From contig NZ_QFRU01000004.1 of the NCBI RefSeq assembly GCF_003184905.1, forward strand, positions 186,001-250,000: a DNA stretch of 64,000 nt, written 5' to 3'. A program made the position numbers and the translations under genes. Positions 12,367 through 32,641 of the stretch are shown here, piece by piece; the first letter of the stretch is position 1; every line of letters begins with the position of its first letter. The notes beneath the pieces are model-generated. The model worked only from the letters and a program-made list of their open reading frames with translations. It did no database searches and was not told the origin of the DNA. Source of the DNA: Bacillus sp. CGMCC 1.16541 (GTDB lineage Bacteria; Bacillota; Bacilli; Bacillales; Bacillaceae_H).

Positions 12367-13029
12367 TTAAAAAGACAAATACCGCGTTGGCGAATAAGTC
12401 ACTTGTAGAAGATCTCCCCATGTTGAGTAGCCTCGATCTTTGAAATGCTCTAATAATTCCACAAATAGATAAGCAGTGGTTAATGCATCTCCCATTGCTT
12501 GATGACGAGGATAAATCCGCGTACCAAATACTTGAGCATATCTTTCAAGATCTCTCATGTCAAAAGAAGGAGCAATGAAACCAATTAAGTCGAGTGTATC
12601 GAGATGTTGGAGTTTCTTCAAATGAAACTTATTCCGTTTTAGCTCATTTTTCAAAACAAGAATATCAAATGCGACATAGTGACCAACAAGACAAGTGGTG
12701 CCATGCTTCTGAACAAAATGAAAGAACTGTTCAATTGCTTCTAAGGAAAGTGGTGCACCCGCAACATGTTCATTTGAGATGGTTGTCAAATCCGTTATTT
12801 CCTGAGAAATTTGTCGTTCTGGGTTCACATATAATCGAAATGTGTCAGACTGTTGAACTTCACACCCTTTTATGGTCACCGCTGCCATTTCAATTAACCG
12901 GTCTGTCGATGCAATTTGAAATCCAGTCGTTTCTGTGTCAAACACTGTAAATACAACATCTTCAATCCTTGTGTTGAGCGGAAGTTGCTCATGTAATTGA
13001 ACAGGAAATGGTTTTCTTGTAAAAAACAC
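12367..13029 (-). CDS. DEDDh 3'-5' exonuclease (DnaQ-like) in the acetate-symporter operon
   Basis: A 220-residue DnaQ/PolC-epsilon-type exonuclease. The DEDDh catalytic residues are visible: Asp31 and Glu33 in VFDTETTGF (Exo I), LVGHYVAFDI (Exo II), and the His and Asp of YPRHQAMGDA (Exo III). It has no polymerase domain, so it is not a replication subunit. The GTG start at 13029 has AAAGGGGG six bases upstream and lies 18 bases after the stop of the cNMP/CBS/DUF294 gene. This pair recurs next to acetate permease and acetyl-CoA synthetase genes in Gammaproteobacteria. It may act on a nucleotide signal or RNA rather than in DNA repair, but that is inference. Confidence 0.88.
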   Translation of the reverse strand: MFFTRKPFPVQLHEQLPLNTRIEDVVFTVFDTETTGFQIASTDRLIEMAAVTIKGCEVQQSDTFRLYVNPERQISQEITDLTTISNEHVAGAPLSLEAIEQFFHFVQKHGTTCLVGHYVAFDILVLKNELKRNKFHLKKLQHLDTLDLIGFIAPSFDMRDLERYAQVFGTRIYPRHQAMGDALTTAYLFVELLEHFKDRGYSTWGDLLQVTYSPTRYLSF

Positions 13030-13047
13030 ACGTTACCCCCTTTCTCT

Positions 13048-14952
13048 TCACAATGAGAAGTGTAGGAACATTTTAGTTTGTAGTTCCTTTAATGTTTTGA
13101 GGCTCCAGATGAGTTCATCCTTTTGACGAAGTGTTAATGTCTGAAAAGATAACACAGAGCTTTTCTCTTCATGATTGACATGTTGCCGCCACTTTAATTG
13201 CATATAGAGTTCAAGGATTGTTTCAATCGCTTTTTTAATATCTTGTGAAAAAGAAGCAGTAAACACCCCTTGTTGAACTAGTCGATCAATTTGGTCCATC
13301 GAAGAGCCTTGAAGCATCTGATGAGTAGCCGCTAAAATTTGTAGTGAATGATGATACGGAAACAACACTTCTTTTTTTAAATCAATTTGTTTTCGTTCAA
13401 GGTGTAGCAGGGAACGAAAGCGTTGCTGAATAGACGGGATTAATTTTGTCTTCTCTTGTTCAGCTAATCGATATAATAAGATTTGGCCTCTCTTCATATG
13501 TGTTTGAACGTGAGATTCAAACAATTGATGAACCGATTCATTTCCATACAAGAAGCGATACGAAAAGAAGTTTTGCACATTTAACATCACTTCATTCGTT
13601 GATTGAAGCGTCCAAGAATGGAGACGATTGTTCCATTGTTCAACAGATCCTCTCCAGTAATGATTACTTGCCATCATGTTACCTTTACAACGCTCATAGC
13701 CCGCTTGTTCAAGTAACTCTACAATTCGCTTGCTTAACAACATAAAATAATCATGGTTGTCTCCTTCATAGACTAAAAAATGGTCTTGATCGGTTAAGAG
13801 AAACTGTTCCTTGCGACCACTGCTTCCCATTTGATAAAAGCAAAAATCTGCCGGTTGCTGCTGTCCTTCTTTCTCTAAATCTTGTAAAGCTAGCTCGATG
13901 CAACGGGTAACGAGGCGATCATAAAGTTTCGTTATAATATCTAATAAACTGAGAACGGGTACTTGGTGCCGAAGGAGTGTTTGGAGCACTTCGTAAGCTG
14001 CTTCTTTCACGACTGGTAGAGTAGATGCATCTGCTTGATCAATTTTTTGAATGACCTTCATCATATTCTCATTTTTCTTACGTAACAAATCAGATAAAGA
14101 GACAACCCCTACTACTTGCGTTTGATCAATTACGGGGAGATGCTTGATTCCTCTTAGTAACATCATCGCGAGCGCTTCATAGTAATAAGAAAAACGAGAT
14201 ACCGTAACAGGCTGTGGTGTCATAATCGTTGCGATAGGATCTTCTACATCTCTTTTTTCTGCAACAACTCGCTTCACCAAGTCTTTTTCGGTCACAATGC
14301 CGACTAGCTCATGTTGGTCGATGACAACAACCGAGCTAATATTGCGGTCAATCATCCGCTTTGATACTTCGTAAATAGACGTATTAGACGACGCTGAAAC
14401 GACATCACGAGACATGACTTCTTGAACACGTAAAATGATGGAATCCTTCTCGCCAAATGAACTGGCTAAGTCAATTTGGTCCGCTAATGATTGATAAACT
14501 CCCTTTAATCGAATAGACACTTGTGTTAATAAATAATGTTTGACGTGTTCATCTTGCAGCCTACTTTCAACAACTGAAAGTGGCACAAGTATTGCTTCTA
14601 CTTCTGTTAATGTGCGAACTTCTAAGTTATCTTCATGCGAAGTAATTTCTGTCTCTGTTAGAAAATTAGCTAGTGTAGGAAACCCGATAAGTTGTCCGTC
14701 TCTCACAACTTCTAGTACTTCTTCACGCTCATGTTGTGAATCTTTAATATATACTTCTGCAATGCCATGAAGCAGCAAAAGGAGACCCTTTTGCTGCTTC
14801 GTTTCAAACAATATATTATGATGAGATTGATAGTTTTTTAACTGACATGATTGTAAAAGTGACGAAATCTCTTCGTTTGTTAATCCTTGAAACAATGGAT
14901 GATGTTCTACTTTTAACAGCGCTTGTTGCTTACATTTGTTTGTCTGTTCCAT
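13048..14952 (-). CDS. cNMP-binding / CBS / DUF294 putative nucleotidyltransferase
   Basis: A 634-residue, three-part predicted signalling protein. Residues ~18-140 are a cyclic-nucleotide-binding-type beta roll; 175-300 are two CBS domains (VMSRDVVSAS.., IMTPQPVTVS..), which usually sense adenine nucleotides; 365-400 carry the Pol-beta-type nucleotidyltransferase signature GSSGRKEQFLLTDQDHF with Asp388 and Asp390, as in the GlnD-like DUF294 family; the rest is the DUF294 C-terminal helical domain. It overlaps the end of the ActP-type symporter gene by 23 bases, so the two are translationally coupled. By analogy with GlnD it may modify a partner protein in response to energy charge; substrate and partner are unknown. 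Confidence 0.88.
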   Translation of the reverse strand: MEQTNKCKQQALLKVEHHPLFQGLTNEEISSLLQSCQLKNYQSHHNILFETKQQKGLLLLLHGIAEVYIKDSQHEREEVLEVVRDGQLIGFPTLANFLTETEITSHEDNLEVRTLTEVEAILVPLSVVESRLQDEHVKHYLLTQVSIRLKGVYQSLADQIDLASSFGEKDSIILRVQEVMSRDVVSASSNTSIYEVSKRMIDRNISSVVVIDQHELVGIVTEKDLVKRVVAEKRDVEDPIATIMTPQPVTVSRFSYYYEALAMMLLRGIKHLPVIDQTQVVGVVSLSDLLRKKNENMMKVIQKIDQADASTLPVVKEAAYEVLQTLLRHQVPVLSLLDIITKLYDRLVTRCIELALQDLEKEGQQQPADFCFYQMGSSGRKEQFLLTDQDHFLVYEGDNHDYFMLLSKRIVELLEQAGYERCKGNMMASNHYWRGSVEQWNNRLHSWTLQSTNEVMLNVQNFFSYRFLYGNESVHQLFESHVQTHMKRGQILLYRLAEQEKTKLIPSIQQRFRSLLHLERKQIDLKKEVLFPYHHSLQILAATHQMLQGSSMDQIDRLVQQGVFTASFSQDIKKAIETILELYMQLKWRQHVNHEEKSSVLSFQTLTLRQKDELIWSLKTLKELQTKMFLHFSL

Positions 14953-16600
14953 CGTTCATCCAAACCTCACCGTCTTTATAGGTCATCTGTTCAGGATAAC
15001 GAAGATCCATCACTTCTTCTTGAATTTTTTGTGAAGGTGCTTTCGTTGCAAGTGAAACCACAACATTTGCTAAAATAGCCGCTAACGCTCCAAACACACC
15101 CGCACCTGTATCAATAACACCTGCAATTGTGAAGCCACCGTATTTTGCTGCAATGATATAACCTAACGTCACAAACAACCCAACAAGCATACCCGCAATG
15201 ACGCCTTGTGCATTTGAACGCTTCCACCATACTCCTAATAAAAGCGCTGGGAAGAATGTACCCGATGCAATGGCGAATGCCCACGCGACGATTTGTGTAA
15301 TCGCTCCTGGAGGATTTAACGCAATTAATCCTGCAAAAAGAGCCGCTAATGCAATTGATAGACGAGCCATAAATAAGCGTTTCTTTTCAGATGCATCTGG
15401 TTTTAATACACGATAGTAAATGTCATGAGCGAACGAAGACGAAATGGCAATCATTAATCCACCGGCTGTTGAAAGGGCTGCTGCCATCGCCCCTGCTGCT
15501 ACTAATCCAATGACAAATACACCTAGATTCGCGATTTCAGGCGTCGCCATTACGACAATATCTTTATCAATCATCAGTTCTGACCATTGTAAAATTCCAT
15601 CACTATTTGCATCTGCTAATTGTAATTTACCTGTGTTAACCCACGACTCTGTCCACGCTGGTAAATTATTAATATCACTTCCTGCTACATTTTTCATTAA
15701 AATAAAACGAGAAAATGCCGCATATGCCGGAGCTGAAATATATAACAAACCGATAAACAATAAAGCCCATGCTCCTGACCATCTTGCTGCTTTCATCGTT
15801 GACACGGTATAAAAACGTACGATTACGTGTGGTAAGCCTGCTGTACCTGCCATTAACGTAAACATAAGAGCTAAGAACTGCCATTTCGTATCGACTGTGA
15901 AAGGCGCAAAGTATTCAGAGATACCTAGTGCGCGGTCAAGTTCTCCTAATTCAGACACTATTTTTCCATATGATAACCAAGGAATTGGATTGTTCGTTAA
16001 TTGAAGAGACATAAAAATCACTGGAATTAAATATGCAATGATTAAAATAATATACTGAGCTACTTGCGTCCATGTAATCCCTTTCATTCCACCAAATGAC
16101 GCATAAAAGGCAATAAGGACAACCCCAATCATTGTTCCTACTTTTGCATCGATTTCAAATAAACGACCAATTACAACCCCAGACCCTGATAGCTGTCCTA
16201 CGGAGTACGTAAAACTAATTAAAATCGTACAAATCGCCGCGATAATACGCGCTGGGTGGCTATTAAATCGATCACCAATAAACTCAGGTACTGTATATCG
16301 GCCATATTTACGAAGTTGTGGTGCTAATAAAAATGTTAAGAGTAAATAACCGCCTGTCCATCCCATAATGTAAGCTAGTCCATCATACCCCATTAACATA
16401 ACGGTTCCAGCCATACCGATAAACGATGCTGCACTCATCCAGTCTGCTCCAATTGCCATTCCGTTATAAATAGCTGGGATCCCCCGACCGGCTACATAAA
16501 ACTCAGACGTCGCACGTGCTTTATTATAAATAGCGATTCCGATATATAATGCAAACGTAACAATAATAATAGAAAATGAGACCCAAAACTGCGTATCCAT
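14930..16600 (-). CDS. actP: Sodium:solute symporter, ActP/YwcA-type (acetate or short monocarboxylates)
   Basis: A 556-residue, ~13-helix membrane protein of the SSS family. It shows the signature TSEFYVAGRGIPAIYNGMAIGADWMSAASFIG (written here as FYVAGRGIPAIYNGMAIGAD and WMSAASFIG) and the later AAAMAAALSTAGGLMIAISSS-like segment around residues 375-395 that lines the sodium site. Close relatives are E. coli ActP and B. subtilis YwcA, and a DUF485 partner precedes it in both. It probably imports acetate or similar acids with Na+. It is gene two of a four-gene operon: DUF485, actP, cNMP/CBS/DUF294, exonuclease. Exact substrate is inferred from family membership only. Confidence 0.88.
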   Translation of the reverse strand: MDTQFWVSFSIIIVTFALYIGIAIYNKARATSEFYVAGRGIPAIYNGMAIGADWMSAASFIGMAGTVMLMGYDGLAYIMGWTGGYLLLTFLLAPQLRKYGRYTVPEFIGDRFNSHPARIIAAICTILISFTYSVGQLSGSGVVIGRLFEIDAKVGTMIGVVLIAFYASFGGMKGITWTQVAQYIILIIAYLIPVIFMSLQLTNNPIPWLSYGKIVSELGELDRALGISEYFAPFTVDTKWQFLALMFTLMAGTAGLPHVIVRFYTVSTMKAARWSGAWALLFIGLLYISAPAYAAFSRFILMKNVAGSDINNLPAWTESWVNTGKLQLADANSDGILQWSELMIDKDIVVMATPEIANLGVFVIGLVAAGAMAAALSTAGGLMIAISSSFAHDIYYRVLKPDASEKKRLFMARLSIALAALFAGLIALNPPGAITQIVAWAFAIASGTFFPALLLGVWWKRSNAQGVIAGMLVGLFVTLGYIIAAKYGGFTIAGVIDTGAGVFGALAAILANVVVSLATKAPSQKIQEEVMDLRYPEQMTYKDGEVWMNDGTDKQM

Positions 16601-16653
16601 TCACGTTTCCCCCTTTATTTGAGCGTGTTTCTCTAATCCCCGTCTTATCTTAA

Positions 16654-16995
16654 TTAATGATCGAACACTTTCCCCTCTGACAACTGCTTGTTTTTCGCTT
16701 CATCAATTCCATATTTGGCATCGATTGAATCACTGACTTTTGCATTCACAAATAGTAAAGAAATAAAGACCAAAATAGACCCTAGCGCTCCCATAAAGTA
16801 GTGAAACGGAAAACCAAGGAACGTAAACATTAATGATTCCGCAAACATAACGACGCCAAATGATACGATGAACCAAATAACTAAGCAAACAGCAATGAGC
16901 TTTGTTCGCTCACGAAAATAAGAATCAGCAATTTTTTTATCAATTTTTTTCAATTGTTCCACCCCCAAAAAATGTTGAAAGCTTTTTATTTCCAC
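16654..16995 (-). CDS. DUF485 membrane protein, partner of the symporter
   Basis: A ~113-residue protein with two transmembrane helices (about residues 34-55 and 64-85 from the first start) and charged ends, matching the DUF485 family (YwcB/YjcH), which nearly always precedes ActP-type symporters. The start is uncertain: GTG at 16995 has AGGA upstream, whereas TTG at 16953 has the better GGGGGTGG and would give a protein of about 99 residues closer to the family length. It heads the operon; the next gene begins 53 bases later. Its role in transport is not established. Confidence 0.82.
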   Translation of the reverse strand: MEIKSFQHFLGVEQLKKIDKKIADSYFRERTKLIAVCLVIWFIVSFGVVMFAESLMFTFLGFPFHYFMGALGSILVFISLLFVNAKVSDSIDAKYGIDEAKNKQLSEGKVFDH

Positions 16996-17524: not shown

Positions 17525-17707
17525 GCTATCCCTCCTCTTTTGTAACCGTTATCAATATTGTTCTAACGAAACAACTATTAATTTTAAGAATATTCTAATA
17601 AGTAAAATATTACATTTTTTTATCCATTCGTCAATACTTGTTCTCATATAATTGGAATATGAGTCTTTTCGCTTATAAGATAACCTGTTAACTGATGAGT
17701 CAAAAAA

Positions 17708-32562: not shown

Positions 32563-32612
32563 TTACCCACCTCCTGCCTAATTTTCTGATTTTTCTAAAT
32601 GTAATCGCTATC

Positions 32613-32641
32613 ATTATAACAAATCTAGTTAATAGTGTCGA
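32613..32641 (-). promoter_or_regulatory. Sigma-A promoter of the nuo operon
   Basis: On the minus strand: -35 TCGACA (32636-32641), 17-bp spacer, -10 TATAAT (32613-32618). TG sits just upstream of the -10. No operator-like dyad could be recognised around it. Confidence 0.75.

Follow-up and report, generated by a model that had tools for sequence, protein, structure and literature searches.

A CBS-DUF294 nucleotidyltransferase and a DEDDh exonuclease-fold protein behave as one module in a Bacillus symporter operon and may form a nucleotidylylation writer/eraser pair

We analysed a 64,000-nucleotide stretch of Bacillus sp. CGMCC 1.16541 (contig NZ_QFRU01000004.1, positions 186,001 to 250,000; hereafter, the window), in which four open reading frames form one operon on the minus strand, transcribed in the order DUF4212 small subunit, sodium/solute symporter, CBS-DUF294 nucleotidyltransferase (NTA) and DEDDh exonuclease-fold protein (EXO). 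Our observations support the conclusion that NTA and EXO, rather than the symporter operon, are the real unit and behave as one module. We propose tentatively, with slightly less than even confidence, that NTA would attach a nucleotide to a protein under the control of its CBS domains and that EXO would oppose this reaction, thereby tuning monocarboxylate use. The initial annotation of this DNA had correctly described the four genes, their common direction, their coordinates, the 23-base overlap between the symporter and NTA reading frames and the 18-base gap between NTA and EXO; its finding holds up, although some of the labels were wrong and part of it had been published before. The writer/eraser-like module that it suggested is considerably strengthened by NTA-EXO fusions and by membrane-anchored exonucleases, whereas its acetate part and the idea that the symporter or DUF4212 is what NTA modifies are weaker.

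NTA is immediately followed by EXO in the same orientation in 23/30 loci from Bacillota, 28/29 from the order of the window and 20/30 from Pseudomonadota (30 best-scoring loci returned for each set, one of which, L065, lacks a full-length NTA), as well as in 59 of 80 loci of a genome scan that comprised the best 80 of 571, and the spacing is mostly a few tens of bases or less. Within the cluster, EXO is displaced upstream in L142, L252 and L261 (L numbers denote loci, G numbers genomes) and two genes further on in L109 and L110. The neighbourhoods of the pair vary, and include aconitase, a methylmalonyl-CoA mutase set, and mrfA/mrfB-type and phosphotransbutyrylase-type genes; in L142, L252 and L261 the pair stands beside a symporter and an AMP-binding gene of ~650 amino acids (aa; cluster c9). 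Among 81 operon partners scanned, AMP-binding enzymes were found 10 times, acetyl-CoA synthetase N-termini 5 times and response-regulator receivers 4 times (116 non-core partners had been found; omitted were all 17 from the type-B loci, L202-L221, and a further 18, most of them <120 aa and those of L166 and L344 included). A second NTA-EXO pair, ~22% identical, lies between mrfA/mrfB-type and ypsA-type genes in L203, L209, L210, L213, L215 and L216 of the window's order; the association of type-B pairs with mrfA/mrfB or phosphotransbutyrylase-type genes, considered within that order, is taken as positional. Also common in that order is a DUF294 protein of ~330 aa, a length that leaves no room for the cyclic nucleotide-binding (cNMP) and CBS domains (e.g., G398:C1:443057 and G425:C10:29769). 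A plasmid collection gave one match, to the nucleotidyltransferase part only, and none spanning both domains.

NTA and EXO also occur in a single polypeptide. In one Pseudomonadota order, fusions in one open frame were found in 27 of 150 genomes (64 with any match), and both active sites are kept in 26 of the 27; across all 27, D17, E19, H158 and D163 of the exonuclease and D454 and D456 of the nucleotidyltransferase are at least 90% conserved, and D104 of the exonuclease is invariant. The 705-aa protein of L332, for example, joins an exonuclease, two CBS domains, DUF294 and DUF294_C, and adjoins the symporter and DUF4212. A TIGR03648-type symporter or DUF4212 adjoins the fusion in L332, L410, L411, L412, L413 and L414 among 21 fusion regions mapped, in which L406 shows DUF4212 only and L407 a 741-aa symporter-profile match. 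The exception, the 730-aa fusion of L392, has lost both active sites and is perhaps a regulatory pseudoenzyme; its host genome (G669) contains a split NTA-EXO pair as well. Split pairs in the same order were counted from 25 NTA and 18 EXO matches, with fusions, three other NTA-type matches (G671, G661 and G640) and short-frame EXO matches omitted: of the EXO matches located no more than 6 kb downstream of an NTA match, 14/14 are in frames of 469-820 aa, and 11 further NTA matches are without an EXO partner match within 6 kb on one strand. Beside the fusion in L410:7434-8090 (-) and L396:8107-8751 (-) stand genes of 214-218 aa with no Pfam match.

Each of the two enzymes is also found at the tail end of proteins that are membrane-bound or sensory, an architecture that a housekeeping nuclease role leaves unexplained. 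The operon at L335:4723-8668 (+) encodes NTA, a stand-alone receiver domain identified with Pfam, and a 700-aa membrane-anchored protein with a terminal DEDDh exonuclease; L337 and L360 have a similar layout. Two hydrophobic segments, in some cases just above threshold, are present at the N terminus of each of eight complete long EXO proteins (L163, L164, L326, L328, L329, L335, L337 and L360), and L335 and L337 carry what we read as a box resembling the H-box of histidine kinases minus the histidine. At L365:4400-6961 (-), an NTA relative has the architecture Cache-PAS-DUF294-DUF294_C, in which a transmembrane sensor has the nucleotidyltransferase as its output. In the vicinity of the module, genes of 1130-1290 aa are found in 10/40 Pseudomonadota regions and 7/21 fusion maps; the three scanned (L362, L396 and L400) encode PAS_7-HisKA-HATPase-receiver proteins, and the symporter profile also matches those of L362 and L396, a feature shared with CrbS-type kinases.

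The module is linked with the symporter across genomes. Symporter and NTA were found in 18 and 36 of 249 Bacillota genomes, respectively, with both in 16 and the two within 5 kb in 5 (Fisher 1.5e-13); the figures were 93, 84, 69 and 52 for 199 genomes of the window's order (Fisher 2e-18) and 43, 64, 35 and 25 (28 within 10 kb) for 180 genomes of Pseudomonadota (Fisher 1.4e-12). These P values ignore phylogeny; when Bacillota were collapsed to families, NTA was present in 9/11 symporter families versus 11/99 others (P 1.6e-6). NTA counts took in frames of at least 450 aa, so that short DUF294 proteins (~320-375 aa) and weak partial matches were dropped, and presence counts in the order are lower bounds drawn from the best matches (G406 and G432, for example, have further, weaker ones). 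All 52 close pairs in the order are on the same strand with NTA downstream, and NTA is directly behind the symporter in 40/40 Bacillaceae-like loci of the genome scan (L092-L131). In a sample of 7 genomes from the genus, 2 have both symporter and NTA and 5 have neither. In 20 Bacillota symporter loci without full-length NTA, the gene maps show no EXO either; 12 of these 20 maps show clusters c2 and c3, the neighbours that follow EXO in the window (by our own reading, a sporulation regulator and an MreB-like gene), 9 of the 20 genomes have NTA elsewhere, and in L233, among the NTA-free symporter regions, the NTA profile finds a match of 150 aa. The initial annotation had staked its case on enrichment of the pair near the symporter and on active-site residues conserved in orthologues; because the pair is both enriched near and co-occurring with the TIGR03648 symporter, and the active sites are conserved as described below, neither ground for rejecting it was found. 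In clostridia and Thermus, a gene for a small protein of 121-171 aa separates NTA from the symporter (L142:7398-7820, L252:6253-6726, L261:7508-8023 and L164:7658-8023); that of L142, scanned alone, gave no Pfam match.

NTA carries PF03445 and PF10335 together with the G-S...R...D-x-D signature of DUF294 nucleotidyltransferases, and is the single DUF294 match in the whole genome (E 0.001). The initial annotation had rightly pointed to Asp388 and Asp390: both positions are Asp in 241 of 242 distinct NTA proteins, R380 is kept in 242/242, and G376 and S377 are present too. The sensor of NTA is likely to be the CBS pair rather than the cNMP domain, because the CBS motif is kept and the cNMP ligand residues are mostly lost. 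Both CBS domains show G-h-h-T/S-x-x-D, the motif of adenosyl-nucleotide sensors, with T221 in 221, D224 in 207, S/T285 in 202 and D288 in 182 of 242 relatives, and the fold matches to CBS chains include AcuB with AMP/ADP/ATP. The cNMP-like domain scores 23 bits with PF00027, below the gathering score of 27.5; Glu is found at the ligand place in 47/200 aligned relatives, and at the phosphate place, which sits in a loosely aligned loop, the 12 commonest states do not include Arg. NTA in the window has Phe91 and Asp108 where a Glu and an Arg, which we take to bind the phosphate of the cyclic nucleotide, are expected. Cyclic-nucleotide sensing, as first annotated, was not borne out, and cyclic-AMP sensing was rejected as the default since the phosphate-binding residues are lacking.

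In an AlphaFold2 (AF2) model of NTA (m2099afbc9b06; mean predicted local distance difference test score 90), the nucleotidyltransferase and helical domains superposed on GlnE and DrrA in a fold search, and the two-domain arrangement of GlnE and GlnD was recovered. The catalytic half of NTA may accordingly be modelled as GlnE/DrrA-type, and NTA as a putative protein nucleotidylyltransferase. The analogy with GlnD drawn at the outset survives at the level of this predicted fold; the Pfam scan of NTA showed neither the HD and ACT domains of GlnD nor the second nucleotidyltransferase domain of GlnE, and no sequence-family match was found among PDB sequences. We favour a protein substrate because of the GlnE/DrrA fold; an RNA tail and a small nucleotide are live rivals.

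EXO keeps all DEDDh positions (D31, E33, D122, H176 and D181), as had been noted, and belongs to the DEDDh exonucleases; among 192 EXO proteins these five residues are held in 188, 188, 170, 189 and 188, respectively. The locus with two pairs, L331, has one EXO that reads N-V-D-H-K, and that of L334, perhaps a mis-called frame, reads --RQE. The solved sequences closest to EXO are PolC, DinG, RNase T and DnaQ, and DEDDh enzymes such as RNase T normally trim 3' ends, which would suit a scheme in which NTA adds nucleotides to the 3' ends of tRNA or mRNA and EXO removes them, as an RNA-tail writer and eraser for carbon-metabolism messages or tRNA. Fusion and pairing fit that scheme equally well. 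We nevertheless judge it rather improbable: the predicted catalytic half of NTA superposes on protein adenylyltransferases, Pfam scans of the module proteins found no RNA-binding domain, and membrane anchoring of EXO would be odd for an RNA trimmer. No CCA-adding or poly(A) enzyme is among the fold matches shown, although CBS chains fill most of these, so that we do not count the absence of RNA nucleotidyltransferases or CD-NTases there against them.

The Cap18 exonuclease (7t2s) is among the fold matches of the EXO domain, and NTA and CD-NTases both belong to the Pol-beta superfamily. NTA might therefore make a small nucleotide messenger, linear or cyclic, that EXO destroys in a CBASS-like or c-di-AMP-type system, with the CBS domains as a possible receptor. 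This we hold to be very unlikely, given that the nearest folds of the modelled catalytic half are GlnE and DrrA, with a helical C-terminal domain, and that the 25 families most frequent in the scanned operon partners include none that is effector-like. NTA also had no PADLOC match at E 0.001, a hidden Markov model miss that is compatible with remote CD-NTase kinship. A defence system was likewise considered and rejected: PADLOC gave EXO generic exonuclease matches only (DEDDh, PDC-S48) and the fusion RTasSbcB.

A pair of the NTA-EXO type in Pseudomonas lies in the acetate regulon (PMC9927547; PMC8402216, PMC5715377, PMC9765439), and recurrence of the gene set near acetate genes in Gammaproteobacteria, which the initial annotation had stated, is in print (PMC9927547; PMC5715377). 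In P. putida, deletion of the exonuclease slows growth on pyruvate and deletion of the transferase does not, and deletion of the transporter (actP-I) gives the same growth pattern as that of the exonuclease; in the same study, single deletions caused no defect on 20 mM acetate (PMC9927547), which leaves the direct acetate link first assumed unsupported. Since loss of the exonuclease hurts and loss of the transferase does not, we read the pair as a writer and eraser with an inhibitory mark, and the pattern shared with the transporter deletion points to an uptake or activation step. NTA and EXO would then be one signalling module, riding here in a probably CcpA-controlled uptake operon for monocarboxylates (acetate/pyruvate type). 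NTA, as a GlnE/DrrA-class transferase gated by a CBS pair of the adenine-nucleotide type, would transfer a nucleotide to its target; the likeliest target is a protein that acts in the uptake or activation of C2/C3 compounds. EXO would be the opposing enzyme, a protein de-nucleotidylylase and no repair nuclease, hydrolysing the phosphodiester made by NTA or the product of its reaction. Loss of the eraser would leave the target tagged, so that carbon use suffers, and loss of the writer would have no effect.

The target could be the symporter or DUF4212 itself, with transport directly switched by nucleotidylylation. Operon linkage (52/93 in the order and 25/43 in Pseudomonadota) and the like growth of the actP-I and exonuclease mutants would fit, and we still consider this distinctly unlikely, because no residue tracks the presence of NTA. 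Comparison of NTA-linked with NTA-free copies revealed no contrast in Tyr, Ser, Thr, Lys or His, either among symporters (69 vs 12), in which Met63 alone differs, or among DUF4212 proteins (67 vs 12), and a further residue contrast of 80 vs 23 sequences gave no support for a transporter target. The NTA-free set was small, namely the 12 genomes for which the matches listed include no full-length NTA; two of these, G279 and G296, do show DUF294 (327 aa in G296, unlisted in G279). The Bacillaceae tail DLRYPEQM-x-YKDGEVW is likewise retained without a linked NTA, and the pair also stands beside aconitase, methylmalonyl-CoA mutase or AMP-binding genes. These results lower the idea of a symporter or DUF4212 target; the target residue could be common to all copies.

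Besides the missing residue contrasts, several observations weigh against protein nucleotidylylation by NTA with reversal by EXO. The kinship with GlnE and DrrA rests on a predicted structure, as a profile of the nucleotidyltransferase and DUF294_C domains (30 sequences) retrieved no GlnE or GlnD from PDB sequences and gave one chance match (E 0.19), and the fold matches of NTA are mostly CBS chains. GlnE removes its own mark, and a nuclease is not needed. In 21 of 192 EXO proteins, all from Pseudomonadota loci, Glu replaces the third catalytic acid (L272, L287, L346, L352 and 17 others, e.g., HYARLEVTF). EXO is not directly downstream of NTA in 21/80 genome-scan loci, and the mapped neighbourhoods of L133, L144, L147, L157 and L158, among others, contain none. 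Among six long EXO proteins scanned with Pfam, PAS falls below cut-offs in L335 and L164 and is absent from the other four, and none matches HisKA or HATPase, so that "sensor" is a reading for the membrane-anchored forms. RNase T, a DEDDh exonuclease, failed to deAMPylate SodA-AMP (PMC12663964), and the P. putida phenotypes come from single mutants in one condition (PMC9927547). The authors of the latter study propose mRNA decay for the exonuclease (PMC9927547). EXO could on that view be a regulatory ribonuclease on carbon-pathway mRNAs, with NTA separately modifying a protein and the operon shared through a common carbon signal; asymmetric phenotypes require no common substrate, and a 204-aa EXO-profile match lies a few genes away from L345, a Pseudomonadota symporter locus without NTA. 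We regard this explanation as unlikely, since the fusions with both active sites, the tight pairing in unrelated contexts and the absence of EXO from the 20 Bacillota symporter maps without full-length NTA point to a shared task.

The coordinates of the operon and its features are collected in Table 1.

Table 1. Features of the operon and its upstream region (positions in the window)
Feature	Position	Strand	Basis
DUF4212 / TIGR03647 symporter small subunit	16654..16995	-	Pfam 91.5 bits (cut-off 30), TIGR03647 88 bits (cut-off 26.05)
VC_2705-family (TIGR03648) sodium/solute symporter, 556 aa	14930..16600	-	732.7 bits vs cut-off 320.75
NTA, 634 aa: cNMP-like, two CBS, DUF294 nucleotidyltransferase, DUF294_C	13048..14952	-	Pfam and AF2 model
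CBS pair of NTA, residues 176 to about 292, both G-h-h-T/S-x-x-D	14077..14427	-	Pfam CBS, 2 stretches
DUF294 nucleotidyltransferase domain of NTA, residues 321-453	13594..13992	-	Pfam E 1.1e-39, 135.9 bits
NTA catalytic motif G376-S377...R380...D388-x-D390	13783..13827	-	Conservation among 242 relatives
DUF294_C helical domain of NTA, residues 493-632	13057..13476	-	Pfam E 1.2e-16, 61.3 bits
EXO, DEDDh 3'-5' exonuclease-fold, 220 aa	12367..13029	-	RNase_T E 1.7e-29, 103.9 bits
cre-like (CcpA) site upstream of operon	17540..17554	+	Exact consensus match
Promoter-like site upstream of operon	17606..17634	-	Consensus match; number of such sites not above shuffles

Two labels of the initial annotation need correction. 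The small gene, called DUF485, encodes DUF4212, and the symporter, called ActP-type, falls below the cut-offs of all three listed ActP models (215.7 vs 750, 193.6 vs 850 and 186.2 vs 1099.25 bits); both proteins score above the curated cut-offs for the VC_2705-type symporter and DUF4212, and the small-subunit gene is directly upstream. The GTG start of DUF4212 at 16995 is probably too far upstream because most relatives start near "(M/L)KKIDK" in the alignment, and the true start probably lies 11-14 codons downstream, near 16953-16962. Carbon-catabolite control of the operon by CcpA is suggested by its cre-like site. The two exact matches in the window, the second at 32599-32613, compare with 1.45 expected by shuffling and are not significant, so that the weight rests on orthologues: an exact cre was found within 650 bases upstream in 26 of 42 regions (the window and L092-L132), versus ~2.2 expected from the loci's background, at distances anywhere between about 60 and 600 bases.

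Nucleotidylation of some target is a long-standing prediction for CBS-DUF294 proteins, a view cited in PMC5715377, and their EXO partner has hitherto been treated as a nuclease. If the proposed roles are true, DEDDh nucleases, one of the commonest nuclease folds, would gain a role in protein modification, acetate and pyruvate use would gain a new layer of control, and the pyruvate phenotype of P. putida would be explained as loss of an eraser. That these proteins make up a widespread and previously unrecognised circuit of reversible protein nucleotidylylation governing monocarboxylate use, with a CBS-gated GlnE-like writer and a DEDDh eraser that are fused in some Pseudomonadota and membrane-tethered in others, is a wider claim, which we consider possible and somewhat doubtful.

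Known systems resemble the module in part. GlnE has two nucleotidyltransferase domains and is self-erasing, whereas NTA has one such domain, CBS sensors and a separate exonuclease, with no sequence match to GlnE. CBASS is an antiphage system that makes cyclic oligonucleotides, and CBASS with the Cap18 exonuclease pairs a Pol-beta-type nucleotidyltransferase with a DEDDh exonuclease; NTA differs in having no PADLOC match. The Legionella AMPylase DrrA/SidM has an eraser, SidD, but SidD has a phosphatase fold, and DrrA is an injected effector and no metabolic regulator. SelO and RNase Z provide a ribonuclease as a protein deAMPylase (PMC12663964), although these two are a pseudokinase and a metallo-hydrolase, respectively, unlike NTA and EXO, and the DEDDh enzyme RNase T was inactive in the assay of that study (PMC12663964). 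Closest in layout are PP_0354-PP_0353 of P. putida (Pflu5625 of P. fluorescens; the PA3232-PA3235 cluster of P. aeruginosa), where a CBS nucleotidyltransferase is likewise followed by an RNase_T-type exonuclease in one operon, and the P. aeruginosa PAO1 homologues of the pair sit beside actP. The Pseudomonas pair is under MxtR/ErdR (CrbS/R), whereas here a cre site accompanies the operon, with TIGR03648 and DUF4212 within it; the suggested CcpA-type control would thus parallel the CrbS/R control known in Pseudomonas.

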